Source of the DNA: Lonicera japonica | Lineage: Eukaryota > Streptophyta > Magnoliopsida > Dipsacales > Caprifoliaceae | Reading direction: 5' to 3' | DNA length: 64,000 nucleotides | NCBI GenBank assembly: GCA_021464415.1 | Contig: CM038469.1 | Location: 61,299,650-61,363,649, forward strand | Shown: in pieces, positions 7,042 through 61,000 of the stretch | How positions within the stretch are numbered: the first letter of the stretch is position 1 | Layout of the letters: the number at the start of each line of letters is the position of its first letter | Program-made: the position numbers and the translations under genes | Notes under the pieces: generated by a model | The model's database searches: none | What the model was told of the DNA's origin: nothing | Seen by the model: the letters and a program-made list of their open reading frames with translations, nothing else

Positions 7042-10000
7042 ATGGGTACTCAAGGTCCAACTGATCAACACTACAACGATGTAATTCTCTCTCTTTCTCT
7101 TAATGTTTTTGTTTTTAATTTTACATTACCATTTTGTCATGTATATTTTCTTTTCTTTTTTTAAAGAGAAATGTTAAACAAATGAAATACTTGAAGAAAA
7201 GTTTTTTCACTTAGGTTGCGTTTGTTTTTTGTAACCTTTGATTGCTGAATGTTAATTACTGAATCCTGAATCCAATTTCTGAAAATACTATTTACTTTTT
7301 TTATTTTGAATGAAGATTTGAATATTAGGTGTTTGTATAAACAATTGTTTAAATTCAGTATTAAGCATTCAGCAAGCACTGATGCTCATGCTGAATACTT
7401 AATCATTCAAAAAAATAGCGGTTAACATATTGCTGATTTAAAAAAAAAAAAAACAGTTAATTGTACCTCTAAATGCTTAAAACTCTCTCATTAAACATTC
7501 AGAAGCAAAAACAAACATTGTTGTAGTTAAAATGACAGTAATTAGTATTGGTTTCCAAATCAACACCTCAGTGTCTGTTGAGTACCTTTTTGTTTGTTTA
7601 GTATTTCTCGTTTTCTTTTAATTGGGTGTATTTTTAATTCTATCAAAATCCGTATGATTACACGAACCAATAGGCACAGTAGTAGTTCGGACAGGCATTA
7701 CTAATTGCCATTACATTTTGAAAGAGTTAGGGTTAACTTGTGTCAAAGACATTATTATTGATTTAATTGTAAAATCATAAGATTTTTGGGTTTGAAAACC
7801 CTCATACTTTATATATATATAGATAAGTTCGCTAATAGCTCACCAGTTTTGAGTCGTATAATTTTAGCCTAGTAGTGAACTGTACAAAATATGTTCTAGG
7901 AGAGTTTAAAAATGAATGATGCTAAACATATTTTAAAATTTTTACAAAATTCTGATACAAACTGATGTAGTAGTGAGAATTGAGAAATGGACGAAACAGT
8001 ACATCAAAATTCTGGTCCCATTAGTTTATCTGATAGGTAATTGAAGAAGTTAGTACAAAAATATTGTATTTGACATGTAAGATAAGACGACGGAATAAGA
8101 TATTAAGATTGGATATGACCGTCGAATATTAATCTTGTGGAGGCTTCTTATATCTTATCCCATGGGAAGAGGGATAAAATTAACAATTCCGCATAGGAGG
8201 TGGATTATTTTGTCCTCTATTGATGGTAAGACAATACGTTAAAAAGACAATTATTTATATGAATATATAAAAATTAAACTCTACATATAGATTATTAATA
8301 TTTTATCCAATCTTATAATCCGAGATAGCTCCAAATGCAGGACTAGATAATAGAAATTTATTATCCGGATGGTCAAACACACCCAAATAGAATAATAGAA
8401 ATTTAACTTAGTTATGTCTGCAACTTGATATCAAAATTAAAGGCCTTGCTAGATGTAACAACTCATAATGGATTATATGTTATTTTATTGTTGTTTGGAG
8501 AATCAAGGATGAAAAGGAAAATAATAGAAATAACTTTTGTTTGGAAAAGATCGAAGTAAAGAAGGGAATATTCTTGCCTTTTTACTTGTATACCTTTTAC
8601 AGTGAAATTTTGTGTAATATGATAGGCGTAATTTTGGAATAGTGTAATAGCTCATTGATTTAGTTTATTTTCCGTCTAATGCAGTCCAATTCGGAAAGGA
8701 AACAAAATTATGGATTGGTAATCCTTCATTTTCCTTTCCATTCCGCCTCAAGTGTCTATTAGGGTGCGTTTGATTGCAAGCGTGGAATTTGCATGGAAAG
8801 AAAATAAGTTACCGGTAATTGAATTGCCTAGAATTGAGTTGCATGGAAAATGAAGTGTAGTGTGTTTGATTGCCTTAATTTTCTACCCGGAAAATATTGG
8901 TTGTATTGTGGCATTTTTAATGTAGAAAAAATTATGGGTATTTTTTTTTACATAATTTTATAGTCATGATGGATCTTGTTTAATTGATCTTGATGAGTAG
9001 ATTTTAAATATAATTTTTTTATTAAATTTTGAATTTTGTAGTTTAAGTTATAGCATTTTTAGTGTAGAAAATGGGTAAAATGTTGTCTCGAAAACCGTGC
9101 AATTGCCTGGAACATAAAAACTAGCCCCCCCCCCCATAAGAAAATATTTTCCTTGTTTACAAGGAAAATGTAAGTGTGTGAGCCAAAAGTGGGAATTCAA
9201 TTGCCTAGAAAAAAAAGCCAATCAAACACCTTAAGTTGTCAAATCAAGTGGAAAATGGATATTTTCCATGGAAAATACTCCCAATCAAACACACCCTTAG
9301 AATCACTCCCTTCCTTTCCTTTCTTTCCAATTCCTTCAATCCAAATAGAACAATAAGAATCCCATTTTATTTCTGTCATTTTGAGGAAAACTCCAATTTC
9401 CACCTAATCCTCATATGTGTTTGTTTCATTTGATTATATAACAAATGAAACTATTAATTTGAGATAGAAAAAAGAGTTTTATTTTAGGAAGGAGGACTTA
9501 GCATTATTTTAGTGATGGAGGATTCCAGCTATTGCATTCAAATGGTGTGGTGCATTTAACAAGAACACAATACGTGTATTTAGGACTTACGCATCTTTCT
9601 CTAAAAACTCGAAAATGCACTTGTTATAGCATCAACTCCTTGTCATTTGAACTCATTGAAAGAAAGAACATGTCTATTGCATGATAACGATAAATAAATG
9701 GGATTGTCACACAATTTATCTACAATATATAGTTATGTTTTGGCAATCCAACATTTGAATCAAGGTCAACATGCTTTTTGTGCCCCTAAAGTCTTGCAAT
9801 AATTCCGACTAGTACCAAAATTCATTGACGTGTGTATATACTGAAAAAGAAAATATGTGATCATAATTTACAGATGGATGAACGGACTGCGAAACAGAAG
9901 GCAATTGATGATTGGCTACCGATTACTTCATCAAGGAATGCAAAATGGTGGTACTCGGCTTTCCACAATGTTACCGCGATGGTTGGAGCTGGTGTTCTCA

Positions 10001-12970
10001 GTCTCCCTTATGCCATGTCGGAACTTGGATGGTGTGTATACTTAACCCTGAGAAATTTCATAGTTTGGTTCAATAATCTTATTATTGCTTGGCAGAGCGT
10101 TTTTATGTATTTTGGTTCAAACTGGATATTGTTATATTGAGTGAAACACACTGTCTTTGGGACTTTTACTAAGGTCTAAGGCCACTATAAATTATGCCGT
10201 AAATGAACAAAATTTTTAAGAGCATCCATTATGGATGTGGTAAGTAGGATAGGAAGGTTAAAGTTATTTACATTTGTTATGGGTAGTTGAAATATAGATT
10301 AAACACTACTAAATGATAAGCGCATGATAAATTTAAGTTTGACAAACAGACAAAGTTCACTGTCATACTGGCTTGACAAAGCCATTTGATGCATTGTCGG
10401 AACAGCAACCGTTTAAGCATGACTCAAAGCAGTGAAAAGTGTCCATTTAACCATTATCCGAACCACTAAAGTCCATTCCATATTGGTACTACCCCCTCGG
10501 TGCAGACCCAGATTTAGATAGAGGGGTCAGCTGAAATGAGTTAGGGATATTTTGCTTTTATTATTAACTAATGGTGGAGTTTCTTTTGTTGGATTGGACT
10601 GGAGATTGCTTTGTCAGGCCCCAGTTTTGACTCTATGCCCATTAGAGAGGGGCATGTAGGGTGATTGGACCACTAAACTCCGTTTTCACCTATACCCACT
10701 AACAAAAACACAAGTATTTTTAACTGTATACTACTTCTCTTTGCAAATATGTCTAAATTTGTGTTACCTTTTTTTTTCAGGGGTCCTGGCGTATCTGTAA
10801 TGGTGATATCATGGATAGTGACTTTATACACCTTATGGCAAATGGTTGAGATGCACGAGATGGTACCAGGGAAACGTTTCGACAGATACCATGAGCTAGG
10901 CCAACACGCCTTTGGTGAAAAGCTTGGCCTCTATATTGTGGTGCCACAACAGCTAATAGTTGAGGTTGGAGTGAACATAGTGTATATGGTCACTGGCGGA
11001 AGGTCACTGCAAAAGTTCCACGATGTAGTGTGCAACGATTGCAAAGACATTAAACTTACCTACTTCATTATGATCTTTGCATCTGTCCATTTTGTGCTTT
11101 CTCACCTTCCCAACTTCAACTCCATTTCTGGTGTATCTTTGGCCGCTGCAGTCATGTCCTTAAGGTACAACACTAGTGTGCTTCCTTTTCCTACATGCCA
11201 TTTCATCATCCTTAGAAGTTCAACAAAAGGTTAGGTTGATTTTGGTATATCGCATTAGCTGATGGCTGGATATAGAAAAATGTGACTCTCTTGGTTAATT
11301 TATTATTTGACCTCTAAATGCATAATGCTGAAAGGTACCTTGAAAAACATATTTGATTTTATTTGGCTCTGAATGCTGAATAGGTTGTAGTTTACAATTT
11401 AGACCTTATTATTTGATTTAATTCACCAGATGATGAATAAAAGAATAAGGGCAGTATTGGGATAAAATCTCATTAAAGTTGAATAAAGTAGTATTCATCG
11501 CAGGACTTGCCTATTAACATTGATTGCTGAATTTATTTTAATTCAATTCAGCGTTAAGATGTGAGAAAACAAACACCATTTCTACTTAAGCATGACTTTC
11601 ATTGAGCATGAAGATGTAAAAACAAATACCACCTCGGTTAGAAAGGATTCTTAATTTTAGAAAGTTTAATATGGTTGATAGTAATGCTGTGATGCAGTTA
11701 CTCTACTATTGCTTGGGCTGCCTCGGTGAAAAAAGGCGTGCAACCCAATGTGGAATATGGATACAAAGCGAAGACCACAGCCGGGACGATTTTTAACTTT
11801 TTTAGTGCATTGGGAGATGTTGCTTTTGCGTATGCAGGGCACAATGTGGTGTTGGAGATTCAAGCAACAATCCCTTCTACACCCGAAAAGCCTTCTAAAG
11901 GTCCCATGTGGAAGGGAGTGGTAGTAGCCTATATTGTCGTGGCAATTTGCTACTTCCCTGTTGCCCTAATCGGCTATTGGATGTTTGGAAATGCAGTCTC
12001 CGATAATATCCTCATCACGCTTGAAAAACCCAATTGGCTTATCGCTATGGCCAATATCTTTGTCGTTGTTCATGTCATTGGAAGCTATCAGGTCCAAATT
12101 CAAACTTTCCCCATCACTCTTCTGTTGTTTTTCTTCTTTCACAGTTTTTTTTTTAATCTCTACTTTCTGTTGTTTCTGTTTTTGCAGATCTATGCAATGC
12201 CAGTGTTTGATATGATAGAAACAGTGCTGGTAAAGAAACTTAAGTTCACACCTAGCCGTACCCTTCGCTTTATTTCGCGTAATGTTTATGTGGGTAAGTA
12301 AATCCCATTACAGATTACAATCATATATTTGAGATCTTTTCTGCTGAGTTATATAATACTCCCTCCATCTGAATGCCCCAAGTTATATAGTCCAGTTTTT
12401 TGTTTTGGACATAATCAGTATACACTCATGACAAAAACTCAAGCTAAGACTCTTATTTTGAGACAGAGACTGCATTTGAATTTGTAATTTGATATATTTT
12501 CTTTGCCTGCCAGCATTCACAATGTTTGTGGCGATTGTTTTCCCTTTCTTTGGTGGACTTCTTGGTTTCTTCGGAGGATTCGCCTTTGCCCCAACAACTT
12601 ATTTTGTAAGCAAAATCGCCTCTTTCCATCATGAACATTTGCATACAATGTTATGTGTTTTAGCATATGTTGATTAATTCAGCGGGATTAATTTTCTCAT
12701 TCTTTTCTTTTTTGCAGCTCCCTTGTATAATGTGGCTTGCAATCTACAAGCCAAAGAAGTTCAGCCTATCTTGGATTACTAATTGGGTATGTGCGTCTTA
12801 AAATGTTACAATTTTTTGGCACTTGGATTGAATTTTTAGCTTAAATTTAGTACATGTTGATAATTTTTCAGATATGCATAATATTGGGAGTTCTTTTGAT
12901 GATTATATCGCCTATTGGAGGGCTAAGGCAGATCATAATCCAAGCCAAGGACTATGAATTCTTCTCTTAA
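7042..12970 (+). CDS. LHT1: LHT1-like amino acid transporter, copy A (8 exons)
   Basis: Lysine/histidine transporter-type member of the plant AAAP (amino acid/auxin permease) family, a proton-coupled importer of neutral, basic and acidic amino acids at the plasma membrane in roots and mesophyll. Exons: 7042-7080, 9874-10031, 10781-11164, 11698-12091, 12188-12293, 12514-12605, 12718-12786 and 12872-12970. All junctions are GT-AG and keep frame, giving 446 aa, the length I recall for LHT1. Visible landmarks are the [19 protein letters not shown] block before the first membrane segment, [12 protein letters not shown], the [14 protein letters not shown] stretch, [34 protein letters not shown], and the C-terminal [20 protein letters not shown]. 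About ten hydrophobic segments are present. Exon 1 codes only 13 residues and is followed by a 2.8-kb intron full of MITEs. The start is the only ATG giving this short acidic N-terminus. The family assignment is certain; one-to-one orthology with LHT1 is inferred. Confidence 0.93.
7215..7540. repeat. MITE-like insertion in intron 1 of LHT gene A
   Basis: This intronic stretch begins GGTTGCGTTTGTTTTTTG, ends with inverted TTTGCTTCTG/CAAAAACAAAC-type sequence, and has internal CTGAATGCTTAA/TTAAGCATTCAG blocks in both orientations. Related ...GCTGAAT...CATTAA... sequence occurs in intron 3 (about 11266-11640) and in intron 2 of LHT gene B (about 20398-20600). Exact ends and target duplication are not resolved. 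Confidence 0.4.
8762..9296. mobile_element. Tourist-like MITE in intron 1 of LHT gene A
   Basis: A 535-bp non-coding element begins GGGTGCGTTTGATTG and ends CAATCAAACACACCC, giving imperfect terminal inverted repeats. It is flanked on both sides by TTA (8759-8761 and 9297-9299), the target duplication expected for PIF/Harbinger (Tourist) elements. Internal TTTTCCATGGAAAA palindromes resemble sequence at 21330-21560 and 59690-59900. A poly-C run lies at about 9125-9134. Confidence 0.75.
11266..11645. repeat. MITE-like sequence in intron 3 of LHT gene A
   Basis: The middle part (about 11437-11525: AAGGGCAGTATTGGGATAAAA and following CATTAA/TTGAAT blocks) matches the insertion in intron 2 of LHT gene B (about 20500-20560, AAGGGCAACGCTGGGATAAAA). 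This shows one repeat family in both paralogues at different intron positions. Ends are not resolved. Confidence 0.4.
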
Positions 12971-18518: not shown

Positions 18519-21500
18519 ATGGCCATTGACGATTCACAACCTCCGAGTGATCACGATTACACCAGTGTAACACCTCTTCTTTCTCTCTCTCTCTATATAT
18601 ATATACACTGACACACATATAGTATGTATTTTACATGAATTGGTTGTTGGGAAATGGAGGAACAGCTCCAAATATGAAACACAAAATTGAATTGTGAGTT
18701 TAAATTTGAATGGAGAGGATATCTATATGTATATATATATATGAATTATAAGAAGAATGGTCAGTTGTATCCCGCAGCCCCCCAATTATGTTTGTTATTG
18801 GTTTCATAATAGTTTGACCAGATTTGGTTTCACTCTGTTGGAATTGCTTTATTAGTCTTCCATCTAAGCGGTTTGTGCCTCCTATTCATTCTCTGTCCCT
18901 TTAATTTCCTACTGAGAAAGATTTGCTTGTTTGTTGAGAAAATGGAGGAAAAGATCGAGCTACGAGATAATTTAGGATTTCTTTTTATACAATTTTGTTA
19001 GATGTTCTTTGAAAGAACCATCAACATATGTTAGATGTTCTTTTATACAATTTTGTTTTGTTTTCTCCTTCAATTTTTTATACATAATTTTATAGTCACA
19101 ATAAATCTTGATTTATAACTCTTGATGAGTTTATTTCAAGTATATAATCTTTATTAAAAAATATATCTTGTATTAAAAGTGATTATATTTTAAAATTTTA
19201 GTAGAAAAATGGAGAAAGAGAAAGGTGACGTGGTAGTGCAAAGTGGGAGTGTATTTTACGCATCTAATTTATACAAAACTCATTTTTAAAAGACTAATAG
19301 AAAAGAATTTTTTTTACAAGTTTTGTAAATTTTACACAAAACATAAATATAGAAAATTATTAAAAATGCCCCGACACTAAAATATGAAACACAAATTTGT
19401 GAGTATACTAATGGAGATTATATTTCGTAATTAAGAAGAAAAACCACTTCTTTCTTCAAACCCTTTAGTTATGTGTGTTCTTGCTGCTGCTTCTTCTTCC
19501 TCCTTTTATGAAAAAGAAAAGGTTGGGTTTTTGGACTTTTTGAGTAGGAGGAACAGAAAACACTTTTTATTGCTTTCTCACCTTTAGTTTTGTGAAAGCT
19601 ACTTAATCCGATGGTGAAACCTTTAAACGGGTGGCCAAAAAGAGAAGTGGTATAGCTAGCCTTGTGTCCAACCTAAAGAAACCCCAATTAGTAACAACCT
19701 TTGTTGCCTTAAATTACCAATCATTTTAATCAACATTTGTTGACTAATTAGATAGCAAACTTGTAGTTAATTAATGTTAGACCCTGGTGTTAGCTTGGTG
19801 GTTAAGCACCTGTCCTTTTACTGGACTAGTCACAGGTTGAAGCCCTCCTCTCAACTAGAATCACGGGCCTATCCTATAGCTACTTGTATAAAAAGGAATT
19901 GAATGTTGGATATCTTGCGAATTTTCTGCTTAAACTGCAAGAGCAAAGTTATTCTATGTTTTATTTTCTTTTTGGTTGAGAAAAGTTTAATGGATCATTG
20001 TCAATTACAGCTTGATGATGATAAGGAAATTGATAAGTGGCTACCAATCACATCTTCAAGGAACGCAAAATGGTGGTACTCGGCTTTTCACAACGTCACT
20101 GCCATGGTTGGTGCCGGTGTTCTCGGTCTCCCTTATGCCATGGCCGAGCTCGGATGGTATATATTAATCCTTAACCCAAACTCTTACTCTTATTTGGTTC
20201 AATCTCACAACTTAAGAGAGCCTTTTCATATGGGCTTGTTCTGCAATTTAAAAAATGCATCTTCAAGCTCAACCACACAATTCTTTATTTCCTATACATT
20301 TAAAAGATTCAAAAATCATTACCCCTTATTGTATAGATACATCTCTCTCTGTGACAAACAAAGCCAGCTACACTCATCCTATTTCTAGATTAAGGGGGTG
20401 TTTGTCTTTTTAGCCTCTTAATGTTAAATGAAAGCCAAGACTAACACGTTTGTTTCTTTTTTGAATTTACCATATATTAACATTTATAAACAAAAAGAAC
20501 AAGGGCAACGCTGGGATAAAAAATTTCATTCATTTTAAGTACACAACAGTCAATAAGGAGCCTGCCTCTTAATTCTGCACACTGAATTTTAATATTCTCT
20601 TTTCCAAAATTTCAGGGGTCCCGGTGTATCTGTATTGGTAATATCATGGATTGTGACTTTGTATACATTATGGCAAATGGTCGAGATGCACGAGATGGTA
20701 CCTGGGAAACGATTTGACAGATACCACGAGCTAGGCCAACACGCTTTTGGCGAAAAGCTCGGCCTCTATATAGTGGTGCCCCAACAGATCATTGTTGAGG
20801 TTGGAGTAAATATTGTCTATATGGTCACCGGAGGGAAGTCCTTGCAAAAATTCCACGATTTAGTATGCGGCAGCAACTGCAAAGATATTAAACTTACCTA
20901 CTTCATTATGATCTTTGCCTCTGTCCATTTTGTGCTCTCGCATCTCCCCAACTTTAATTCCATTTCTGGCGTGTCGTTGGCCGCAGCAGTAATGTCCCTG
21001 AGGTGCAAAACTGTTAAAGCTACCCTCTTCTTTCAATTTATGAGTTATGACATTTCATCAACCTTTGGAATTACGGGTGTGATTGGTAGGAACTTTTTCA
21101 ATGGATGCTTTCTACTCACTCACAATCTTTCGTGGGGTTTGATAAGAAGTCCATGACTTTCCATGGGATGACCATACTCATCCAATACCTCAAAAACCTT
21201 GAATTTGAATTATCCCCTGCCCCCTAAGAAATTGAATTTAAGGTGGGGAATTTGTATATTTCGAGGAGAAGTTAGCTTTTACTATGCACGGTATATTTTA
21301 TCATCTTTGGTGTTTGATTGACACCAAAAGATGGATATACATTATTTGCCAGTTGAAAATAAAGCCAGAGAAACACTTTCTAGTAACATTTTCCATGGAA
21401 ATCAGCTGGTAGCAATTCAATACCCTATAATTCAATTATTTTCTAGCATTTTTGCATGTTCCCTTAGTGATGTGTTTTTTTATTGGTTTACATGGAAAAA

Positions 21501-23377
21501 GAATATGGACTCCTTGGAATTGTTTTACATGCAGAAATTTTCATGGAAACAAAACCTTGTGTAGGAGGTTGTTTTAAAATTAGAGTCCAAACTAGAAACT
21601 GAGGCCAAACCAAGTTGTACCACAGAAATTGATTCCATGGTACTATTGTTGTGATGCAGCTACTCAACTATTGCTTGGACGGCTTCCGTGGGAAAGGGTG
21701 TGCAACCCGATGTTGAATACAGTTACAAAGGTAAGACCACAGCCGATGTAGTTTTCAACTTCTTCAGTGCATTGGGCGACGTTGCTTTTGCATATGCTGG
21801 GCACAATGTGGTATTAGAAATTCAAGCAACAATTCCTTCTACACCCGAGAAGCCGTCTAAAGGTCCCATGTGGAAAGGAGTTTTAGTCGCCTACATAATC
21901 GTTGCACTATGCTACTTCCCCGTTGCCTTAATTGGGTACTGGATGTTCGGAAATGCAGTATCTGACAATGTTCTCATCACGCTTGAAAAACCCGTTTGGC
22001 TCATTGCAATGGCCAACATGTTTGTCGTCATTCATGTTATTGGAAGCTATCAGGTTCTAGATAATCTTCTCTCTCGTTAAAGCATCTCCATCGGTTAGGA
22101 AATTAAAAATTATAAAATAAAAAATAATTGAGACTACAAATCCCACCTTGAAAAACCACTTAATATTTCGGGCCACTCCATCTATTGCTAGTTGGTTTTT
22201 AATTGGTTGGATGATCTAAACTCTAATATGGTATCAAAGCAGGGCTATATCATCCACATGTATGGCCCAATGGCCACATGCCTGCTCAGATTCGACATTG
22301 CTAGAGTGATGAAATCTTCTAATCACTCTAGAGTATAGTTTGGAAAATTTGAACCGCTAAGATTTAAATTTGACAATTCAAACTTTGAGTCTTGTGTTCT
22401 ATTTAAATGAGTTATCACCAGAGGAAAAACATTCTTCTTGCAAGAACTCAAAATCTTAATCATCAAATTAAATCTAACGGTTTGGATTCTCCAAACTCTA
22501 CTCTAAAGTGATTCTCATCACTCTTGAGGAACCGAATCCTACTATTTCCCGATATATTCCATCCACCCATGGCTAATTGGTTTTGAGTTGGATGCTGCAA
22601 CGTGGTAAACATGGGTTGAGACAGGAGACTTATTACCGTTCGATAGTTACCATGAGCAGTGGAGATGTTTTTAATTTATTATCAACTTTTTTCCTATTCT
22701 CGGCTAATTCTGAAATCACTTGTGCTTCTGTTAATTTAGATTTACGCAATGCCAGTATTTGACATGATGGAAACTCTGCTGGTGAGGAAATTGAGATTTA
22801 GGCCTAGTCTAACTCTTCGCTTTGTTACACGGACTCTGTATGTGGGTAAGTGAATTCCAATATATATACTAGCAGTTTCTAATTTTATAGGTTGGTTATA
22901 TTGCTTTGAAGTTGATACATTTTCTTTGCTTTCAGCATTCACAATGTTTGTCGCCATTTGTTTCCCTTTCTTCGGTGGACTTCTTGGATTCTTTGGAGGT
23001 TTCGCCTTTGCCCCAACAACATACTTTGTAAGCATCTCTAAATCTTTTCAACAACAAAATTGTATATAATCAGTGTGAACAAATTTCTCAACTTGCCCTT
23101 TGCTTTTCTTCAGCTACCTTGCATCATGTGGCTTTCAATTTACAACCCAAAGAAGTTCAGCTTATCTTGGATTGCTAACTGGGTACTTGAAACTTCAAAT
23201 CTTTCATCTGTTTTCTTTGTTTCACATCTGGCTGAAATTTTGAGCTAATTGAATCTAGCATTGCTTCATGAATTTCAGTTCTGCATTTTACTGGGCGTGC
23301 TTTTGATGATTTTATCGCCTATCGGAGGGCTAAGGCAGATTATAATACAAGCCAAAGACTACGAGTTCTTCTCTTAA
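18519..23377 (+). CDS. LHT1: LHT1-like amino acid transporter, copy B (8 exons)
   Basis: Tandem paralogue of the transporter gene at 7042, in the same orientation about 5.5 kb downstream. Exons: 18519-18566, 20011-20156, 20616-21002, 21660-22053, 22740-22845, 22936-23027, 23114-23182 and 23279-23377. Every internal junction has the same phase as in copy A; exons 4-8 have identical lengths (394, 106, 92, 69, 99) and the total is again 446 aa. Exon 1 is three codons longer, exon 2 four shorter and exon 3 one longer. Conserved landmarks include [56 protein letters not shown] and DYEFFS at the end. Copy B keeps GVLGLPYAM, the usual family form, where copy A has GVLSLPYAM. Membrane topology and role should match copy A: plasma-membrane proton-coupled amino acid uptake. 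No disabling change is visible, so both copies look functional. Confidence 0.93.
20398..20600. repeat. MITE-like insertion in intron 2 of LHT gene B
   Basis: Starts near GGGGGTGTTTGTCTTTTTAG and holds AAGGGCAACGCTGGGATAAAA, related to sequence in intron 3 of copy A. Ends are approximate; no target duplication was confirmed. Confidence 0.35.
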
Positions 23378-24283: not shown

Positions 24284-25286
24284 GTGATTGCTCTTTGGGT
24301 TAGTCTGTTGTGGATTTTGAATCCTTGGACTGAGTTGTTTAGAGGAAGAAGTGGTAAACTTGAAAAGAAACTCAGATAGTACACGATTTGGGTTTTGGTT
24401 TATGGCTTGTATTTTGTTGTATGTTATTGGTGAGAGCAACGGAAATCAAAAAACATCTTATTTCTTGTAATGAGTGTGACTATGGTGTACATGAAGTTGC
24501 CAATTTATTGGAAAGCTTAGTCAATAAAGAATAGAAGGGAAGTTGGTTCTTTGATGTGAGAGCATTTCAAGTGCTGGATGAGTTTTGGTAGGGAGGACTT
24601 GGCTCTTCTCCATTATCCTTCCGTCCAATTTCGTTCAATGCGATTCAGTTCAAGGCTAAATGGATAAAAAAAATTATGAAACTTGGTCAAGATGATCTCT
24701 ATGATGAGTAGTTCATCTCCGCAGAATTTCATCAGAAAAATCAACTAGAAGTGGGTGAGATCATTATTTAAAATTTTAACTCACACTTCCTGTTTGAATT
24801 TCTTGATGAAATTTTGTGGAGATGATGTACTCCTTACAAAGATCATCTTCACCAAGTTTGATTAAAAAAAATCATCTATTTAACCATCGAACTAGACCAC
24901 ATTTAATGGAATTGAACGAATAATAGAGAGGATCCAAGTCCTTCCCACCAAAACTCATCCAACACTTTAAATGCTATCACATCAAATAGCCAACTTCCCT
25001 TCTGTCTATATTGACAAAAACCCAAACTTCCTTTCTAACTTCTACGTTCAAATAAGAATTAAAATATAAGCTTTGCAATAAATTCGCAACTTTATATCCA
25101 CCATAGTCACACACGTGTTATGATTTCCATTGCTCTCACCAATAACATGCAACAAAATACAAGCCATAAACCAAAACCCAAATCTTGTACTACCTGAATT
25201 TCTTGTCAATTTTACCACTTCTTTCTCTAAACAACTCAGTCCAACGATTCAAAATCCACAAAACACTAACACAAATAGCAATCACA
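24284..25286. repeat. ~1-kb near-perfect palindrome overlapping the TLC gene 3' end
   Basis: The left arm (24284-24759) and right arm (24780-25286) are inverted copies of each other with a 20-base centre. The match runs from GTGGGTGAG/CTCACACTTC at the centre, through GTTATTGGTGAGAGCAACGG versus its complement near 25122-25150, to GATTGCTC...GTTAG versus CTAAC...AGCAATC at the outside. The right arm contains the last ~97 bases of the TLC coding sequence and its 3' flank, and the left arm contains a mirror copy. Scattered substitutions and small indels show it is not brand new. Confidence 0.85.
24287..24379 (+). pseudogene. Inverted duplicate of the TLC gene C-terminal 30 codons
   Basis: The + strand reads 30 codons plus TAG (WILNPWTELFRGRSGKLEKK at its core), aligning without a frameshift to the last 30 codons of the TLC gene on the - strand (WILNRWTELFRERSGKIDKK). 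Upstream of 24284 the similarity stops, so this is only a 3' fragment carried in the left arm of the palindrome. A real gene ending here is unlikely because no upstream exon is recognisable. Confidence 0.75.
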
Positions 25287-26208
25287 ACCACGACAATCCA
25301 AGAAACCCAAATCCACCTAGGAATCACATCATCAGCAACCCCACTCAAGTAAAAAACACACATTTGATACACTAAAATGGGTCCCAAAAAACCCCTAACA
25401 ACAGAATAAAGAACATAAAATGGGAGAGACAATGATGCAAACACCTTAGCTGCAAAACCCGAATCCCCTTTCCTCACATTAGCCAGAGTCCAAGTGTTCT
25501 GACAAAAGCTGGTTACCTCCGCAAGAACAAGAAGTGATAGGATAGCATAGGCTCCATGATGAACAATGTACCTGCAAGTAGGGGGTGGTAAATTTATAAA
25601 GAACACCAAACAAAACAAAATTAGCACAAATTGACCTGAGAACCCGTGTTCATGTCCAATTTTCAAACGAAATTGACACAAAATTGAAAAAAAAAATCAA
25701 ACAAAATTGGCAGTTATATAATGTTCAATGTGTTTTCTACCCGTACTAAAACTTGTCCATGTTTGGTGTTTGTATCTTATTATTCCTTGTGGTGTAATGT
25801 GGCAAACATGACCTAAAAAACACGAATGGCCACCCCCTACCTGCAAGTAACAAAAACAAAGAGAGTGGCCAAATGGTGGCCTATAAAAAGGACATCACTG
25901 GGATAGAAGATGAGGTAGTGAAACAGGTCCATTAAAAAGTAAGCTATGCTGTGATCGAGAACTAGGATTTGGTAACTGTTATTAATAGAAGCGAAATTGC
26001 AATTTGGATCGGAGAAAATGGCGCGAATTGCGAATAACACTGCAGGTGTGCCGTGGGCTAGTGAGATTAAGCAGCTTGAAGCTTCGGGTCGGATATTAAG
26101 GTTCCAATTTGGGAAGATAATGAAGTATGCAATGATATAGATAACAAGACATACTGAAAAGAAGAGAGAAAGGTTTGGGATTGAAGGTATTAGAATTAGG
26201 GTTTCCAT
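25190..26208 (-). CDS. TLC-domain membrane protein (two exons)
   Basis: TRAM/LAG1/CLN8-type membrane protein, resembling the plant TLC-domain proteins annotated like At5g14285; the biochemical role is unknown (other TLC proteins act in ceramide synthesis or lipid sensing). Exon 1 is 26208-25841 and exon 2 is 25571-25190, joined in frame to 249 aa. An in-frame ATG at 26223 would add five residues; I chose the METLIL start. Visible: about six to seven hydrophobic segments, the TLC signature region DHSIAYFLMDLFHYL then FIGHHLATLFVFVTCRYIVHHG across the intron, and a basic C-terminus. The single 269-bp intron equals a 261-bp hAT-like MITE plus one 8-bp target-site duplication (see that entry). 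The coding 3' end lies in a 1-kb palindrome. It is transcribed towards LHT gene B. Confidence 0.85.
25579..25839 (-). mobile_element. hAT-like MITE that forms the TLC gene intron
   Basis: A 261-bp element has perfect 10-bp terminal inverted repeats, TAGGGGGTGG at 25579-25588 and CCACCCCCTA at 25830-25839. It is flanked by a perfect 8-bp direct repeat CCTGCAAG (+ strand; 25571-25578 and 25840-25847), the duplication size of hAT transposons. The start TAGGGGGTGGCCATTCGTGTTT read on the - strand resembles a common plant hAT MITE type. The annotated intron (25572-25840) is this element plus one duplication copy. The donor G comes from the duplication and its T from the element; the acceptor CAG comes from the other duplication copy. 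Confidence 0.85.
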
Positions 26209-26506: not shown

Positions 26507-26931
26507 CTGAAGCTGGGGTATGAGGCAAGGCCTGAAGCGGGCAAAAGAAAGAGGCTGGGAGGGTGTTGAGATGGAAAGTGACTCGAAGACCGGAGTGGAC
26601 CTGATTAACAGTGAAGAGAACGTTGACAATCACCCCGAGCGAAATCTTATTGAAGACTGTAGGAGTCTCAAGAGACAAGTAAAAGCTAGAATATGGCATG
26701 TGCTGAGGGAAGCAAATAGATGTGCAGATGGATTGGCAAAAATTGGAGCAACTCAACGTGAGCAGCATGTTAGGATTTTAATCCCACCTGATGAAGTTGT
26801 TGAAAATCTAATGGCAGATTTGGTAGGAGTAGCCTACCCCAGGGGATATTAAGCTCGTTTTGTTGCTGCTGTATTAGACCTTCGTTGTTTTCTTTCTGTT
26901 CTTTCCTTCCTATTGTTTCACCAAAAAAAAA
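26507..26931 (+). mobile_element. 5'-truncated LINE insertion with 17-bp target duplication
   Basis: A 425-bp insertion is flanked by a perfect direct repeat ATTACCACTTTCAATGC (26490-26506 and 26932-26948) and ends in a run of A residues. Both are hallmarks of target-primed reverse transcription. It interrupts the left arm of the 8.6-kb inverted-repeat element; the arm sequence resumes at once after the second duplication. It encodes the RNase H-like end of a LINE polyprotein. Confidence 0.9.
26520..26852 (+). pseudogene. LINE RNase H-like domain fragment
   Basis: An open 110-codon frame ends in TAA and matches the C-terminal RNase H-like domain (RVT_3 type) of plant L1 LINEs. It shows GLKRAKERGWEGVEMESDSK with the acidic residues of the RNase H fold, NHPERNLIEDC, HVLREANRCADGLAKIGA near the C-terminal Asp, and the usual tail PPDEVVENLMADLVGVAYPRG. 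The first part of the domain and all upstream enzyme domains are absent, so this is the 3' end of a truncated insertion, not a host gene. No frameshift is visible, consistent with a relatively young insertion. Confidence 0.85.
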
Positions 26932-28734: not shown

Positions 28735-29285
28735 ATGGTGTTAAAATGATTTTAGCACCTTCTGATTGTTGTCCAAATGGTGCTACATTATGGTTGTTGT
28801 TCAAGTGGTGCTAAATGCATTTAGCTCCTTCTGATTGTTGTTCAGAAGGTGCTAAATCCATTTAACACCTCATGGTTGGTGGTGTTAAATGCATTTAGCA
28901 CCTTCTAGTTGGTGGTGCTAAATGCATTTAGCACATTCTGGTTGTTGTTCAGAATGTGCTGAATGCATTTAGTACCTTCTGGTTGTTGTTCAGGTTGTTG
29001 TTCAGAATGTGCTAAATGCATTTAACACCTTTTGGTTATTGTTCAGAAAGGTTGTTGTTCAGGTTATTGTTCAGAATGTGTTAAATGCATTTAGCAACTT
29101 CTGGTTGTTGTTCAGAAGTTGCTAAATGCATTTAGCATCTTCTGGTTGCTGTTCAAGTTATGCTAAATGCATTTAGGACATTCTAGTTATAGTGCTAAAT
29201 GCATTTAGTACCTTTTGGTTGGTGCTAAATGGTCGTTGTTCATGTGTTGCTAAATGCATTTATCACCTTCTGGTTGCTGTTAGTG
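28735..29285 (+). repeat. Minisatellite with palindromic TGCTAAATGCATTTAGCA core
   Basis: About ten to twelve imperfect tandem units of roughly 40-50 bp. Each couples the 18-base palindrome TGCTAAATGCATTTAGCA (or near variants) to CCTTCTGGTTGTTGTTCAGAAGG, which can itself pair CCTTCTG with CAGAAGG. Each unit can therefore form one or two hairpins. It is not a CRISPR: the organism is a plant, and there are no distinct spacers. Confidence 0.85.
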
Positions 29286-42300: not shown

Positions 42301-43490
42301 AGTTTAAACATGGTTAAGGGTGGGTCGTTTGGGTGGCAGGGGAGCATCAGGACATGGTGGTTTGGAAAAGATCCCAAAATGGTATTCCCACTGTCGTTCT
42401 TTCTACAAGTTTATCACTTGGACGAAAGACAATCAAAATGGTGAATCGCGGAATTGGATTTGGAAAATAGCATGCCAAAAAAATTTGAATCTTTGGCTGG
42501 CTTATTATGCACCGAAGACTTCCTCTTAATTCATATCAAGCACATATTGGTATTGCGGAGTTTGACATTTGCCCCCCATATTGTCAAGAGCTGCTGAGAC
42601 GATTAGCCACTTTTTAAGGGAATGCCCCCAGTCACAAATTGTAAGGCAAATGCTTATTTCTTATACTCGACTTGTAAATTTCTTCAATTTCAAGGTCAAA
42701 TAATTGATCTAGTTCAATGTGAAGGATCAGGCTAGCTGGTCTACATCAATATCATATAATTGATCCCAATTGTTCGTATTTGCCATTTGGAAACATCATA
42801 ATGATCAAGTGTTCTACCAAACATTGTACAATCTATATCGGGTCTTGAAGCATACTCTTACTATGGCCATAGATTTACAAATAAATAAAACAGATTCTTT
42901 TGGGTTAAGCGATCCACTTAATGGTATATGGGTTAAACCACCTCTGGGATATCTTAAGTTGAATCTGGATGGTGGTTTTTATGATGGTGAGGCAGTGTAC
43001 GAATGTGTGTTTCGGGGTGATGCAGGACGTTGGTTGTGGGGTTTTACAGGCTCATTTCATGGAAATACTAATCTCTCAGCATAGGTCAGAGCGTTAAAAG
43101 TGGGTCTGCAGCAATTGGAAAGTCGAGGGCACATGCGTGTAATTGTTGAAACTTACTCCTCTCAATCTCTAACTTCATTCAATGGGTGCCCTATGTCGAA
43201 GCATTCGGAGGCAAAGAATGTTCTCAAGTGTAATCAATTGAATATGCGTATTTGGAGTTGCTCGGTGTTGAATACTCCTCGTTGCTCGAATATGTGTGCC
43301 GATGCTGTTGCAAAGCTAGGATATAGCTTAGATTCTTCTGATATCACTTTCATTTTGAACGTAACCCAATCTCATGTTGTGAATATTGTGATTAGTGAGG
43401 CTATACTTTTTTCTTGGTCCAAAGGGAGAGCTTTAAACTCTATATATTATATAAATCGGAATAGAAAATCTCCATTACTGAAGGTGGTAT
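39340..43490 (+). mobile_element. Decayed L1-type LINE with ORF1, endonuclease, RT and RNase H remnants
   Basis: On the + strand, in order: ORF1-like DUF4283 sequence (about 39340-39870; VRIPALPVLVEFYNEDISYS and IAKCIGKPLKVNM); an apurinic endonuclease start (about 41057-41180; MKIITWNCW, then NVLVLMETKV); the reverse transcriptase core with FANDILLF in place of FADD (about 41580-41720); the post-core region with LSLSGRCTLIQSMLARIPSY (41900-42080); a zinc-binding region (about 42440-42640); and an RNase H-like domain (about 42930-43440; LKLNLDGGF, and CADAVAKLGYS). Many frameshifts and stops break it, so it is dead. An LTR remnant lies between ORF1 and the endonuclease. Confidence 0.85.
40202..40478 (-). 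mobile_element. LTR-retrotransposon LTR remnant with primer-binding site
   Basis: Read on the - strand, the segment starts TGTTAGCGTTG at 40478 and runs to about 40204. It is followed at once by TGGTATTAGAAGG, a variant of the TGGTATCAGAGC initiator-tRNA primer-binding site of plant Ty1/copia elements. A short GC-richer leader follows (to about 39960). Only one LTR was recognised and no gag or pol, so the element is truncated. It lies inside the older LINE. Confidence 0.55.
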
Positions 43491-50063: not shown

Positions 50064-51820
50064 GTTTCATCTAATTTGTTCTTTTTTTCTATGCTTCCCA
50101 TGACTAAAATGAAAAAGCCCTTCTTTGCTTCCATATTGTAAACCTAATTTCTTGTTCTATCTTGGGTTTTAGGTTTCTACTTCTTTTAATTGCAAACCCA
50201 CAATTAGTCATTGAATTCGTACAGAAATCTGAAGTAATTTTATTATTATTATTATAATACATCAATTGAAATCTGAGGGTAGTCGATTGGATATAGGATC
50301 TTGAACCAACAATTGTATTTAACTATCTCCTTTTTATTTTTCTGTCTTTGTTATTTTGTAGACGAGGATAGTCGATTGGATATAGGATCTACACTGTAGC
50401 ATGTTATAATAACGTAACACATCATCAACACGTATATTGAATATGACTTGCGTTGTTTCGTTAGCTATGTTGTCATTACTGCTGGACTCAAATTTGTAAT
50501 GCTATTACTGAAGTGAAACTCGTTCACAAAATTCAATTAGAATTTGCACAGTGATGTTAGTTAATTGAATACAGATTCTAGATTTATCACGTCAACATGG
50601 AGCATCCATAATGGGTATCATTGGTAAGATAAATAGGATAAATTTATCCCTTTTAGGCTTGGACAAAATATTGATCGCCCATTTAGAAATCACTGCTCAT
50701 TTTGAAATGTATGAGCACATCATTTTTAAGCAAGGTGAAGTAACATTGAAAATTTCTATATTTGGCTCAAATATCAAAGTTTAAAGCGGTTTGATGTTTT
50801 TTCCTAGGCCCTTCATTAGTGCCCCTTAGCTAAATTCTGTATTTCTTTGCGATCTTTTGTAGCTTGATAGCTTGCCTTTTGGCTTATATAGACCCTTTTT
50901 CCAAGAACATTTTACACAGGTTTGATTCTATTGAAGCTTCGTAATAAAGTATTTTGCATATTCTTACTATTATGTAATAGCTTTTTGTTGGTGGATAGCT
51001 TGTATATTGATTTGTATTCGCACATTGTTTGTGAAATTTTAGGATTTGTGGTTCAGCTGCATACTAGTTATGCATGTGTATGATGCAATTTCAACGTTCA
51101 TATTTAGATTACTATCTCTCAATAGTTGTGATTGACAAATTTATGTTTGAACTTTGAACCAACAAATTGCGGAACTGCTTTATGTGCTTTACCCAAGCTT
51201 TACTTCTAGCTTTGATTGTTACTAGTTCCTTCTTTTTTCCTGCTAGATCTGGAGCAACTTTTTTCTCATAAATCTTTGTTTATCTTCAGTTTTAGAGTTG
51301 GGACAGACATGACCACACGACACATACATGCTATCTTTTAAATCTCTGTAAGTTTGCAGTCTCTCTCCATCCTTTGAAGTTATAATTTTTATCCTTTTGC
51401 CTTCCTGAACAATGATAATTTAATCCTCAATAAACCAGATGGTTGTACTAGTTTCAGCTGAGCACAGTATTTTATTTTCTTGGTTCTCAAACATCTCAAC
51501 TCCAGCATTGACTTTTTTTTTTTAGCATTCCATATTATTTTAATAGGTTCATGTTTCCTGCATTCTATTTGTCATTGTCCATGTTGTATCCCTCTCCTCA
51601 TTTTTGGTCCGAATCTAATGTTCTTTGCCAGAAAATCAGTTAATTGGGTAAGAACTTGGTACTTTCTCAACAACGGCGAACTTGGTACTTTCTCAACAAC
51701 GGCTGAAATGTTTTTTCTAAGTTGTTTCTCTATCTTTTTTGTAGTAATCTTGGGGCAGTATCTGTAAGGCGGTCGTTGAACAGTAAATTACCAATCAAGT
51801 CCTCTTCTAGAGAAATTCAC

Positions 51821-54800
51821 ATGGAAAATAATCACAGCAGTGACTCGAGAGGCGCTTTAATTGTTCTAGAAGGTTTGGATCGTAGTGGAAAGACCTCACA
51901 AGCTAGTAAACTAGTCTCGTATGTGGAGGGCTTAGGGCATTCAGTTGAATCTTGGCGCTTTCCTGATAGAAATACAGGTGTTGGGCAAATGATTTCTTCA
52001 TATCTTGGCAATAAATCACATTTGGATGATCACACAATTCATCTACTCTTTAGTGCAAATCGCTGGGAGAAGAGGTTTGTTTCATTATACTAGCTCTCTC
52101 TTAGTCCCACTTTACTTTTATGGTGTCTCAAATTAAGAGTCCCATTTTCTTTTTTGGATATAATCAATTTACCAACTCTCACAACAGAAAATAAGTTGTT
52201 TTATCTACCATTGATTAGGTTGAAATTAGTGTTTCTTTAGAAATTTTGAAATTCAAAGTGAGACTATTTGCTATCAGTATCATCTTAAAGTTCACGCACC
52301 AGAAAAGATTTATTTTTGCAGATCATTGATGGAGAATAAGCTTCAGACTGGAACCACTCTCATTGTTGATCGCTATTCATATTCTGGGGTGGCTTTCTCA
52401 TCTGCCAAAGGGCTTGATATTGAATGGTGTAAGGTGAATAAGATATCCAACTTTTTCATAAAAATAAGTTCTATTTCGAAGTTTACGAAAATATGAGGTC
52501 CTTTGGTGCAGGCTCCGGAGAGGGGGTTGCTGGCTCCTGATCTGGTATTATACCTTGACATACCACCTGAGGTAATATGTTTTCACTATATTTTCAACTG
52601 TTGAAATTGTGAGAATTATGCCTTTGAATACACTGGTATTTTTGGTTCTTGTGGGTAATTTGTTTGAAATTGTCTGAACTTTTTACACGTGTGGGACTTG
52701 CTGATTTCAGTTTATTAAACAAGTAATCACTATATTATGATTCTTTTGTGTCATATATAAATACCCCACCCCCAAAAAAAAAAGAAGAAAAAACTACGTT
52801 ATGAAATCAAGAGTTCTTCCGTATTAATGGGATTAAATCAATTTATTGTGTCTCCCCATAGTAAATAAGTCATAAGTGGGTTTTTTTGGTAAACTAGAAT
52901 CAGATTCAATCAAAAAACACATACAGCTTACAAGGGCATCCCCCAGAATCCCAGATTATACAAGAATCCTCTTACCAATTCCCCGGTTCTTACAAACTAA
53001 CCAATTCACAAATGTCCTACTAGTCTTAATGCCAAGCTTTAGCACAAATGAACCTATCAATTTCTTTGACTACATATGATACATCTCTAGTTCAATTTCT
53101 AAAAATCCTCTGATTTCTCTTGCACCAAATACAATATATAGTAACAGCAAAAGCTAATCCTCCTTTCCTACCCACAGACCATTCCCTTTTAGGTCTCTTA
53201 ATGGCCTCCTGAACAGTGTTGTCTAATTCATGGACCCCTCCTATGCACTGCGAATTGGGTGTGTCGACCCCAAACAGGGTACATACATTAGCGACCCCTT
53301 ATTTTAACTTGCACAGACCTATGAAAAGGGAGTGCACAGTTTCATATATACAGACAAATGTAGTTATATTTCAAAAATGTCAAGGTTCTATTATAGTATT
53401 TACATGTGTATTGAAAATGACCCGAGTATAATTCCTAGAATTGCCACCTGAAATAGCGTTCCAACTAAGCCTACCCCCACCACTGCATACTGGGCTAGTT
53501 AATGTAACCCTAACCCGTACCTGTACCAGTACCGCATACCAAAGTGTCCCATGAATTAGGTAATATTGCTCCTGAAGCTCATCATTCCAACTATTGCATC
53601 TGTAGTGCTGGTTGCATCAATGCAAAACAATGTCCCGCACCTGTCTTGAGAAGCTACAATTGTACAAGAGGTGATCCCTATCCTCATCATGCTCACCACA
53701 AAGACAAAGAACACAAATTGAATCAGTCAACCCCCCCCAACCCCCCCCCCCCCCCAATTTATAAAGTTTATCCCTAGTTCTAAGTCTGTTCTTGCAAACC
53801 AACCAACAAATTATACTACGCCGAGGGATCTGATTCTGATCTTTGTGCAACACCACACTACACCAACCCAGCCCAACAAACAACAGGACGATGAGTTCTA
53901 AGGGCATTCCATACTGATATACAAGAAAACACACAGTTATGAGACAAAGTCCACTCAGCACTGTTATTGCAAATTAAAATCAGATCTCTTGAAACAGGAT
54001 TTGGCATATTCTATTCATCATTCCTCGTATAATCTGCCATAACCAAGTGTTCCTCCCATTCCCAATCTTGTACCTGATGAACCTCCAAGCTATAACCAAG
54101 GTTGAAATTAATGTTTTTCATAAAAAGTTAGAAAAGTTCAATTGAGATCTGAGACTCGTAATTTGAGACAGATGGAGGAATTTATGCGGTTGAACACGAG
54201 CACAATGATAGGTTTTATATTAGCTCTATTCTTTTACGTCTGCTTCTTATTAGACGACATTGTCACACTAACTGAAAAATCTTTTTAAACTATCAGAAAG
54301 CTGCTGAAAGAGGAGGCTATGGAGGTGAGCGATATGAGCTGCTTGAGTTTCAAAGAAAAGTCGCCCAATCCTATCAGATGCTTCACGATGCCTCCTGGAA
54401 GGTATATTAATGTATTGTAATTGGGGGTGTGTTTGATAAAAAGTTGGAAAATGATTGGCCTAGTTGTTCTTTAACTTTTTTTGATTTTTCTATGGATTCC
54501 AGTTCTTTATGGGATAGGTAAGAAATTTTTTCCGTGAAAATAGGAGAAAAAGAGGTAGAACATCTCACCAAATCACTCTCTTTTTTCCAACTTCTCATAA
54601 AAAAATATTTTCTAACTTTGTCTTATCAAACAGAACCTAGTTGTATGCTCTTTTTCTCCCTCCTTAAGTTTGTGTGTGTTTACTAGTCATTTTTTTAAAA
54701 AATATCACTCCAAAATACTAATAGAGGTGAGAGAAATTTGCATCGGAAGGTGGCAACAAATGCTACATTATGTAGTTGCAGTGTCCATTTCTCCATATAT

Positions 54801-58033: not shown

Positions 58034-61000
58034 CTAGTTGACAACATCAAGTACCAGCTTACGAGACTTGAGAACGGACCACTTCAGGCGCCTGTAATAA
58101 GCTGCTTGTAGCAAGGCCAAAGACAGTACAAATATCCACTTGAATCCCATCTGCATCATACACCACATATATTCTTGTTATCACTGAATTAACTGTACAA
58201 TGTGGCTTAATCACATCCGTTGATTATACAGGCCATTGGGTATGGGGTGAAATTTGCATAATTATAGTGTGCACATTTATTTAGAATATAATACAAACAA
58301 AATTAGCCCGAAATACATTAAAACTAGCCTGATTGAAAGATAACATACCAGTTTCCTCTCTTCCATTTCGGGTTCTGCAGCCCATGTCAAAAATGTCACA
58401 ACATCTTTACCCATCTACAAAAAAATTGCGAAAGACAATAAGCTTGATGATGATGAAAATGAGTGTAACATATATGCATATACATAGCTTGTAGCAGCAA
58501 ATTTTTTATTACTACTTTGGTGAAATAAGGAAGACTAACCTGAGCCTCAGTTGCAGGGGTACCGTCTTCATACTCAACAGCACCATCATTGAGCATTTTA
58601 GGCATAGCAATGGCTCCCCCAGGGAAGTAAGGATTATAGTGCAACCCTTCCCGGATCTACAATGTCATTAAGGCTTTTCTAATTAAACAAAGAAACATTA
58701 CAGTACCTCTGATTGAAAAACACCAAAGAAGAAAACCCCTATGAAAACAAACGAGATTATACTTAAAATTGATTGACTCCGCAATAACAACAAAAAAAAG
58801 ATTGTATTTTTGTACACGCCCTGATAAAATACTCCATCCATCCCTATTAAGAGGCCATGTTTGACTTTCACATCTTCTAAGAATGCACTAATTTCATCAA
58901 AATCAATGGTTTAGTTTAAAACTTGCTTCCTATCATAGTTTTGGTACATTTATTGAGTTCTGGAAAAGAAAGTTTACTCTTCAATTTGGTACATCCCAAA
59001 AAAGAATAGTGGACTCTTAAATTGGGAAAGAGGGAGTACATTTTTAGATTTTGACCCTCCATTCTGGCACTATCCAATTCCTGGATTTACCACAGCCTAT
59101 AAATATAATCAAGTCAGCACATTTACATCAGCTATATATAGGAAAACCTGATGTGTGACGAGGGTCAATATTTTATGCAAGAATGTACCTTTCACTACCA
59201 AGGAAATTCACAGATAAAAATATAAACAACCGGAGCTAAGTTCTTTCGAATTTGAATATGGGCAGGGAAATGAAACTGAGCCCTTGTCAACTCAAGGTGG
59301 AATAGTCCCTTGGGATTTTGCCATCCCTTGGTCTACAAGGTAAGTTAAACCCAAATAATGGGAACAGGCTATCAACTGCACCTACAGGTTGTCAAAGAAA
59401 AAGGAAGCCCATACAAATTACAAATTATCTTTTTAAGCAAGATGGTAATCATTATGTAGAATTCACATATAATTGCATAAAGGATCATATCACTTCTCCA
59501 TGTGAATATAGAAAGTCATTATGTTTTCATGAAGAAAGAACCAACAAGACTAAGCAGCAGAAGGTACCGAAACACCAGCAGGTGGGTCACGGTAACCAGT
59601 TAGGAGGGCAAATACATAGTTCTGACCATTGTGACGAGCCTGAAAAGACAGAAAGAAATTAATAAGATAAGTTCAACCACTTTGTATTTGATTCACTTCT
59701 TTTCCATGGAAAATGCCCAAAAATTCTTATTTCCCATCGTTAGTGATGTTTGATTGATATGATTTGCCAAGGAATCAATTTTCAGGGTACATCTAGATTT
59801 AGCCTGATTTTTTTTTTCATTTCCCATGGAATCCAAAACCCTCTTCTCCCCTATGTTTTTATTTTCCAAGCAACCATTTTCCATGGAATTCAGTGTTTAC
59901 CATGAAAGCCAACCAATCATAACCATATAAAAAAAGAAAAGAAAAGAAAAGGGGGATTACTTTGGTGATAAGACTTAAATCGGGAGGATATGCCCCTCCA
60001 TTAGCAAACCTAGCAGCCTGCTCATTTGAATACGGCTGAGGAAAACGATCGCTCAGTTTTCCAGGGCGGGTAAACATCTCACCCTCATCATTAGGCCCAT
60101 CAACCACCTCAATCTCAGCAGCCATAGCCTTTGTTTCCTCTTCTGTATACGCCACTCCCACCAAATCACGGTAAGAGATGAGGGACATTGAATGACACGA
60201 TGCACAGACTTGTTGGTACACCTGATGACCACGGCGGATCCTGCTCATGTAAAATTGATCACAATGTTTTAAGAGTCACAGTAACATAAGCTTAACTAAA
60301 CAAGAATATCAAGGCCCCCGTTCATAACTCGAAATTAGAGTTGCCCCCTTGCCCCTTGTTTTCATGATCTTTAGACATTGTCCCCAGCGTGCAGTGGAAT
60401 CTAAAAAAATTACTAACAAATGGGGCACAATATCTAATTTTTATAACGTAATCCTTTCACGTAACCCCCTGTATTTACATAAAAGTCCACAATTATGAAA
60501 ACAGGGGGCTAATTCTCAGTTTGCATATAAAAATATAAAAAATGTGGGTGGGGAGGTTGCGCAAAGCAAATAGCCCGAAAATAAATAATTATCATGGTTC
60601 TACCATTAAGATGAGAGGTTCTTGTATATCCCAATGGATATCAACTGGAAATATGCTAGAGAGGAAGTACTGTAGCTTAATTAAGAAGGCAACAGCCTAC
60701 AACTGTGTATTTTAGTATAGCTTAATTAAGAAAGCAATGCCCACAAGTGTAATTGAGGTTGTGACTCGTGAGGGAAAAAAACAAGGGCAAGGTAGCATAT
60801 GTTTACCAATAGTATTTGCCCCCATCAACGAGAACAAACAAAATCTATATCCATCTATAAATGTCAAATCCTTATCCATATCAGTCTGGACACTAAATTT
60901 ACCTCCAACGTCGCATCCGCCGCATCCACTCAACGTATGCACGATTTAGATAACATATGAATTTCTATTCATTTCTAAAGAGTTTGCATCATTACAAATA

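Follow-up and report, generated by a model that had tools for sequence, protein, structure and literature searches.

Ds of maize is a hAT element that makes 8-bp duplications, and the maize cases in which it sits in an exon are mutant alleles. Such exonic Ds copies are spliced from RNA (Science 1987), a plant precedent cited in the excerpted texts of PMC3443670 and PMC4256211. The excerpt of PMC3443670 presents transposon insertion as an intron-gain mechanism, gives examples from Oryza, Drosophila, Oikopleura and Zea, and refers to Giroux 1994. Introners, as described in extracts of PMC9860276, include families that recruit their splice sites from the duplication; these extracts report no evidence of introners in land plants, and the study retained only families of at least four similar introns, so that single events would be missed. 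For grasses, the excerpt of PMC4256211 reports that losses far outnumber gains and states, on plants, that no proposed fixed intron gain is tied to transposon structure, a statement hard to square with the Oryza case tabulated in PMC3443670. The passages available from PMC12595863 (plant MITEs) and PMC10487979 (introns of plant MSH1) deal with alternative splicing and intron gains, and contain no intron equal to a MITE. Among the titles listed in our literature search none concerned a land-plant introner family or the intron described here, which is weak evidence of absence, with subscription journals mostly outside its scope. The origin of new plant introns is an open question, and a clean case accounts for every base.

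We analysed a window of 64,000 nucleotides from Lonicera japonica, by which we mean the whole stretch of DNA under study. It carries on its minus strand an At5g14285-like TLC-domain gene running from the ATG at 26208-26206 to the stop at 25190-25192; excerpted literature on At5g14285 concerns phosphate responses. The coding sequence is broken once, at 25572-25840, and we consider it likely, from the DNA sequence, that this interval is an intron born by insertion of a hAT-like MITE into the TLC gene and removed by splicing. The features of the locus are as follows, with splice borders marked by a slash.

25841..26208, minus strand: exon 1 of the TLC gene, coding part, 368 nt, with the ATG at 26208-26206; placed by profile score and TRAM_LAG1_CLN8 match
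25572..25840, minus strand: predicted intron of the TLC gene, 269 nt, donor CAG/GTAGGG, acceptor CTTGCAG/G; best of 219 products
25190..25571, minus strand: exon 2 of the TLC gene, coding part including the stop, 382 nt; placed by profile score and alignment
25579..25839, no strand assigned: non-coding element with inverted ends, 261 bp (hAT-like MITE); no stretch free of stops exceeds 49 codons in any of the six frames
25579..25588, plus strand: terminal inverted repeat TAGGGGGTGG, 10/10 match to the other end
25830..25839, plus strand: terminal inverted repeat CCACCCCCTA, 10/10 match to the other end
25571..25578, plus strand: target site duplication copy 1, CCTGCAAG, supplying the acceptor CAG/G on the coding strand
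25840..25847, plus strand: target site duplication copy 2, CCTGCAAG, whose last coding-strand G forms the donor GT with the T of the element
25620..25624, minus strand: CTAAT resembling a branch point, with its A 49 nt upstream of the acceptor

On re-checking, the coordinates, lengths and letters that the sequence-only reading had given for the 261-bp element, its 10-bp inverted ends and the 8-bp repeat were all correct, as was its equation of the intron with the element plus one duplication copy (25572-25840, 269 bp = 261 + 8). It had also held that the unspliced reading stops at the border and that removal of the interval restores the conserved TLC reading. The unspliced ORF indeed halts there at 123 aa vs 249 aa for the spliced product, on which Pfam TRAM_LAG1_CLN8 matches with 68.6 bits. 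The second claim was borne out by a splice test in which 540 GT-AG pairs (introns of at least 60 bases) plus the unspliced reading gave 219 distinct products, scored with a profile built from 119 relatives, leaving out the window protein and P0008, a relative from Lonicera macranthoides. The predicted junction scored highest of the 219 at 457.4 bits vs 407.4 bits for the runner-up, a product of 251 aa that uses an acceptor inside the element (TTCTCAG) and a donor further upstream; the unspliced form reached 211.3 bits.

Three characters of a hAT-superfamily MITE are present in the element: an 8-bp target site duplication, CCTGCAAG, perfect in both copies; short inverted ends of hAT type; and a short, non-coding body. 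Inverted ends of hAT type start YAG. Those seen here, TAGGGGGTGG and CCACCCCCTA, pair at 10 of 10 positions, the next two bases being unlike. The direct repeat is extendable to 12 bp (TACCTGCAAGTA, at 25569-25580 and 25838-25849), since on either side the host sequence next to the target happens to be TA, as are the ends of the element; a boundary at 8 bp thus suits a hAT element, but formally others could be drawn. A perfect 8-bp repeat with perfect 10-bp inverted ends around an element of 80-900 bp occurs in 2 instances in the 64-kb window, the second of them near 28.9 kb, where palindromic units are repeated in tandem, and in 1 instance across 20 mononucleotide shuffles of the window. Independently of this pattern, it is a second coincidence that these very boundaries restore a conserved protein. 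Within the 64-kb window we found no other copy of the element (the next best blastn hit covers 30 bp at 83%); a peptide of 42 residues, 39 of them from the reading frame of the element, drew no candidate from the protein collection; and a literature search with the letters of the inverted ends returned nothing on plant transposons among the matches listed.

Elsewhere in the window, the tandem array spans 28794-29231 and is built of units with palindromes such as TGCTAAATGCATTTAGCA, in several periods. Three pieces (26511-26849, 43085-43489 and 53620-53973) match reverse-transcriptase-associated Pfam families, RVT_3 twice and zf-RVT once, and are probably retroelement remnants. A piece of a thymidylate kinase gene lies at 51707-52090 (plus strand) and a piece of a cytochrome c1 gene at 59862-60275 (minus strand). 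Two neighbouring LHT-type amino-acid transporter genes with several introns each occupy 9859-12967 and 20023-23374 on the plus strand, the first recognised by a piece that matches Pfam Aa_trans, with exons traced by a guide sequence.

GT-AG borders, a branch-like site and a restored frame mark the interval as a putative U2 spliceosomal intron. By splice site matrices whose ranks, like the branch consensus, are indicative only, the donor CAG/GTAGGG ranks first of 72 GT sites in the coding region and the acceptor third of 42 AG sites; the top-ranked acceptor belongs to the other occurrence of this motif, immediately upstream of the donor, and could find a donor to pair with only if the gene had an intron further upstream. 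On the same scale the donor scores 10.3 vs 2.4-8.0 for nine introns of the two transporter genes (12 junctions sought, 9 resolved, 3 not). The intron is 65% A+U vs 60% in each exon, and its T content is no higher (37% vs 37% and 40%). In sequence, the predicted intron coincides with a transposon insertion and takes its splice sites at the borders of that insertion, one of two marks of an introner, the other being several similar introns at different places in one genome. In exon 1, on the minus strand, the LFVFVTCR codons at 25841-25864 form a T-rich run before TTGCAG, which an ad hoc score places above every other acceptor-like site in the coding region; this combination may be common to orthologues.

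The predicted RNA fold of the intron and its flanks is a long hairpin (-86.4 kcal/mol, z -4.45, 0 of 100 shuffles as low). Its outer stem of about 20 bp would pair the donor with the acceptor, enclosing both splice sites, because the inverted ends run on into a nearly palindromic duplication. Such a hairpin could bring the splice sites together, or it could hide the donor and impair splicing.

With a threshold of E <= 0.001 a protein search kept 483 of 1730 candidates as relatives, 120 of them listed; many of these bear the name TLC domain-containing protein At5g14285 or one like it, and many flowering plants are represented. In an alignment of 121 rows, the window protein and the 120 listed relatives, identity to the window protein is 62-74%, P0008 excepted. 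P0008 is the nearest protein among the matches listed, 96-97% identical and only 186 aa long; this closeness by itself would probably place the window in Lonicera or a near relative within Caprifoliaceae. No insertion or gap occurs at codons 118-130 in any of the 121 rows, and TCR at the junction is held in 119 of them, within VTCRY, LTCRY or ITCRY in 94; this shows the reading restored by the predicted splice to be the ancestral one. A gap-free protein alignment alone would fit genes of the relatives with or without an intron here. Metagenome sources usually call uninterrupted ORFs. By hand count, 42 of the 120 listed relatives have lgn, jgi or ena as their only sources, with nothing in ncbi, uniref or nr, and 12 of the 42 have a longest contig of at least 2 kb (for example P0120, 167,300 bp, and P0016, 5,050 bp); one of the 12, P0099, lies on a 57-Mb contig from ena and could well derive from a spliced annotation. 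If the lgn, jgi and ena sources call unspliced ORFs, these entries suggest genes that are uninterrupted at the junction in the relatives concerned. The annotation of P0008 runs across the junction without a break, as it would whether the element is spliced out or missing from that gene.

At 98 conserved columns the window protein differs in 3, inside the range of its relatives (0-6, median 1) but in its upper part, above the median: 40 of the 121 rows show 0 departures, 33 show 1, 27 show 2, 14 show 3, 6 show 4 and 1 shows 6. Plain decay of the window gene, considered separately, is unsupported with 3 of 98 conserved columns changed, though it may apply to P0008. That protein is shortened, leaving the family sequence beyond residue 184, and carries C in place of W150, which the window protein and all 119 other listed relatives keep; from this truncation and change, the TLC gene may be under weak constraint in Lonicera. 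A search of the protein collection for the truncated 123-aa unspliced form found none, the 20 relatives retrieved being 137-215 aa long with P0008 the best. A pattern search for DNA of relatives in contig collections from viruses and prokaryotes matched 1, 36 and 16 stretches, none of which encodes a relative, as one would expect of a plant gene. Four shorter relatives (P0121-P0124) leave the family just after AAK or a like motif, at about residue 164, which would suit alternative splicing or misprediction at that point.

In the history that we propose, a short non-autonomous hAT-like transposon would have entered a continuous exon at CTTGCAGG on the coding strand and duplicated these 8 bases. 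The coding-strand target context reads ...TTACTTGCAGGTACATT..., with CAG/GT already present before insertion. The duplication sets CAGG at both ends (CAG/G + TAGGGG, and CCCCTA + CTTGCAG/G): its first copy with the terminal TAGGG of the element makes the donor CAG/GTAGGG, its second copy makes the acceptor TTGCAG/G, and the element contributes an A/U-rich interior, the branch-like CTAAT and, from the other inverted end, a C-rich tail. The spliceosome would then cut out the element and one duplication copy to give the ancestral mRNA and its 249-aa protein, and a mutation that truncates the protein at residue 123 would become an almost neutral new intron. With inverted repeats for ends, the element would yield the same donor and tail whichever way round it sits, and the target alone decides. 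Among 738 target positions in the coding sequence, 8 end in AGG, one of them in CAGG; a second CAGG abuts the stop codon, outside this count. Insertions elsewhere would generally spoil the protein and be selected out, and the exact fit is therefore no evidence of target choice: survival alone explains it. Birth of the intron by insertion, as claimed by the sequence-only reading, stands as the best-supported account from its boundaries, duplication, restored protein, strong donor and gap-free relatives, with the splicing step within it a prediction. The term introner-like in that reading is at most tentative if it is to mean a family producing many introns.

Several other accounts have to be set against this one. 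The insertion might be real and recent and the element mostly retained or mis-spliced, leaving a weak or null allele, perhaps unfixed. A fold that pairs donor with acceptor in one long stem would suit such an outcome, as would the shortened L. macranthoides protein with its change at W150 and the behaviour of carrot hAT-like MITEs in introns, often kept in transcripts according to the excerpt of PMC8227079; mis-splicing would moreover have at hand the acceptor TTCTCAG inside the element, which gives the second-best product (251 aa, 407 bits). However, both exons are still open and conserved, the donor is the strongest of the coding region by the indicative matrix, the 3 departures at 98 conserved columns fall within the 0-6 of the relatives and P0008 reads straight across the junction, and we regard this account as unlikely. 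Far less probable is an older intron at the same codon, with the element coming later or replacing it. Resolved presence/absence cases in grasses are mostly losses and not gains (excerpt of PMC4256211), and the relatives are known here as proteins and not as gene structures, both in its favour; yet insertion into an existing intron would leave host bases outside the duplication, whereas this intron is exactly the element plus one duplication copy with no further intron sequence left, which counts against it.

The direct repeats might instead stem from tandem duplication, or from break repair with filler DNA, and not from transposition. Repair can likewise leave short direct repeats at a new intron (excerpt of PMC3443670), and a potato intron was gained by tandem duplication (excerpt of PMC4974935), but perfect 10-bp inverted ends that abut the 8-bp repeat, a pattern with 1 instance in 20 shuffled windows, make such an origin highly improbable here. 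Insertion of a hAT-like MITE followed by splicing remains our preferred reading, and it admits an extension that we hold to be rather improbable: a land-plant introner family, formed by a hAT-like MITE with ends starting TAGGGG, of which this intron would be one member. Any target ending in AGG would then yield AG/GTAGGG...CCCCTA...AG/G, base-exact and in either orientation, and many single-lineage introns of Lonicera and its kin would be such copies. The signature itself, an intron equal to the element + 8 with donor AG/GTAGGG, is searchable in all plant genomes.

The rarity of well-defined land-plant cases, noted in the sequence-only reading, agrees with the excerpts of PMC9860276 and PMC4256211, although the mechanism itself has long been known from maize Ds. 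Like Ds, the element at this locus is a non-autonomous transposon in a plant exon, spliced out in the case of Ds and predicted to be so here; unlike Ds, it is a 261-bp MITE with other ends in an otherwise intact eudicot gene. It resembles introners as excerpted from PMC9860276 in that the intron is the transposon, the splice sites come from the duplication and the protein length is unchanged, but introners come in families (at least 4 similar introns kept in that study), whereas one copy is known here. Carrot hAT-like MITEs (excerpt of PMC8227079) are likewise small and non-autonomous, lie in genes and alter splicing; they are reported to make splice variants, whereas here the element and its duplication are the whole intron. 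The rice catalase intron (Iwamoto 1998, in the transposon-insertion row of the excerpted table of PMC3443670) is also a plant intron gain credited to a transposon, but in another gene and lineage. The mechanism is thus known from maize Ds and from introners, and what is new is a complete natural example in a eudicot.
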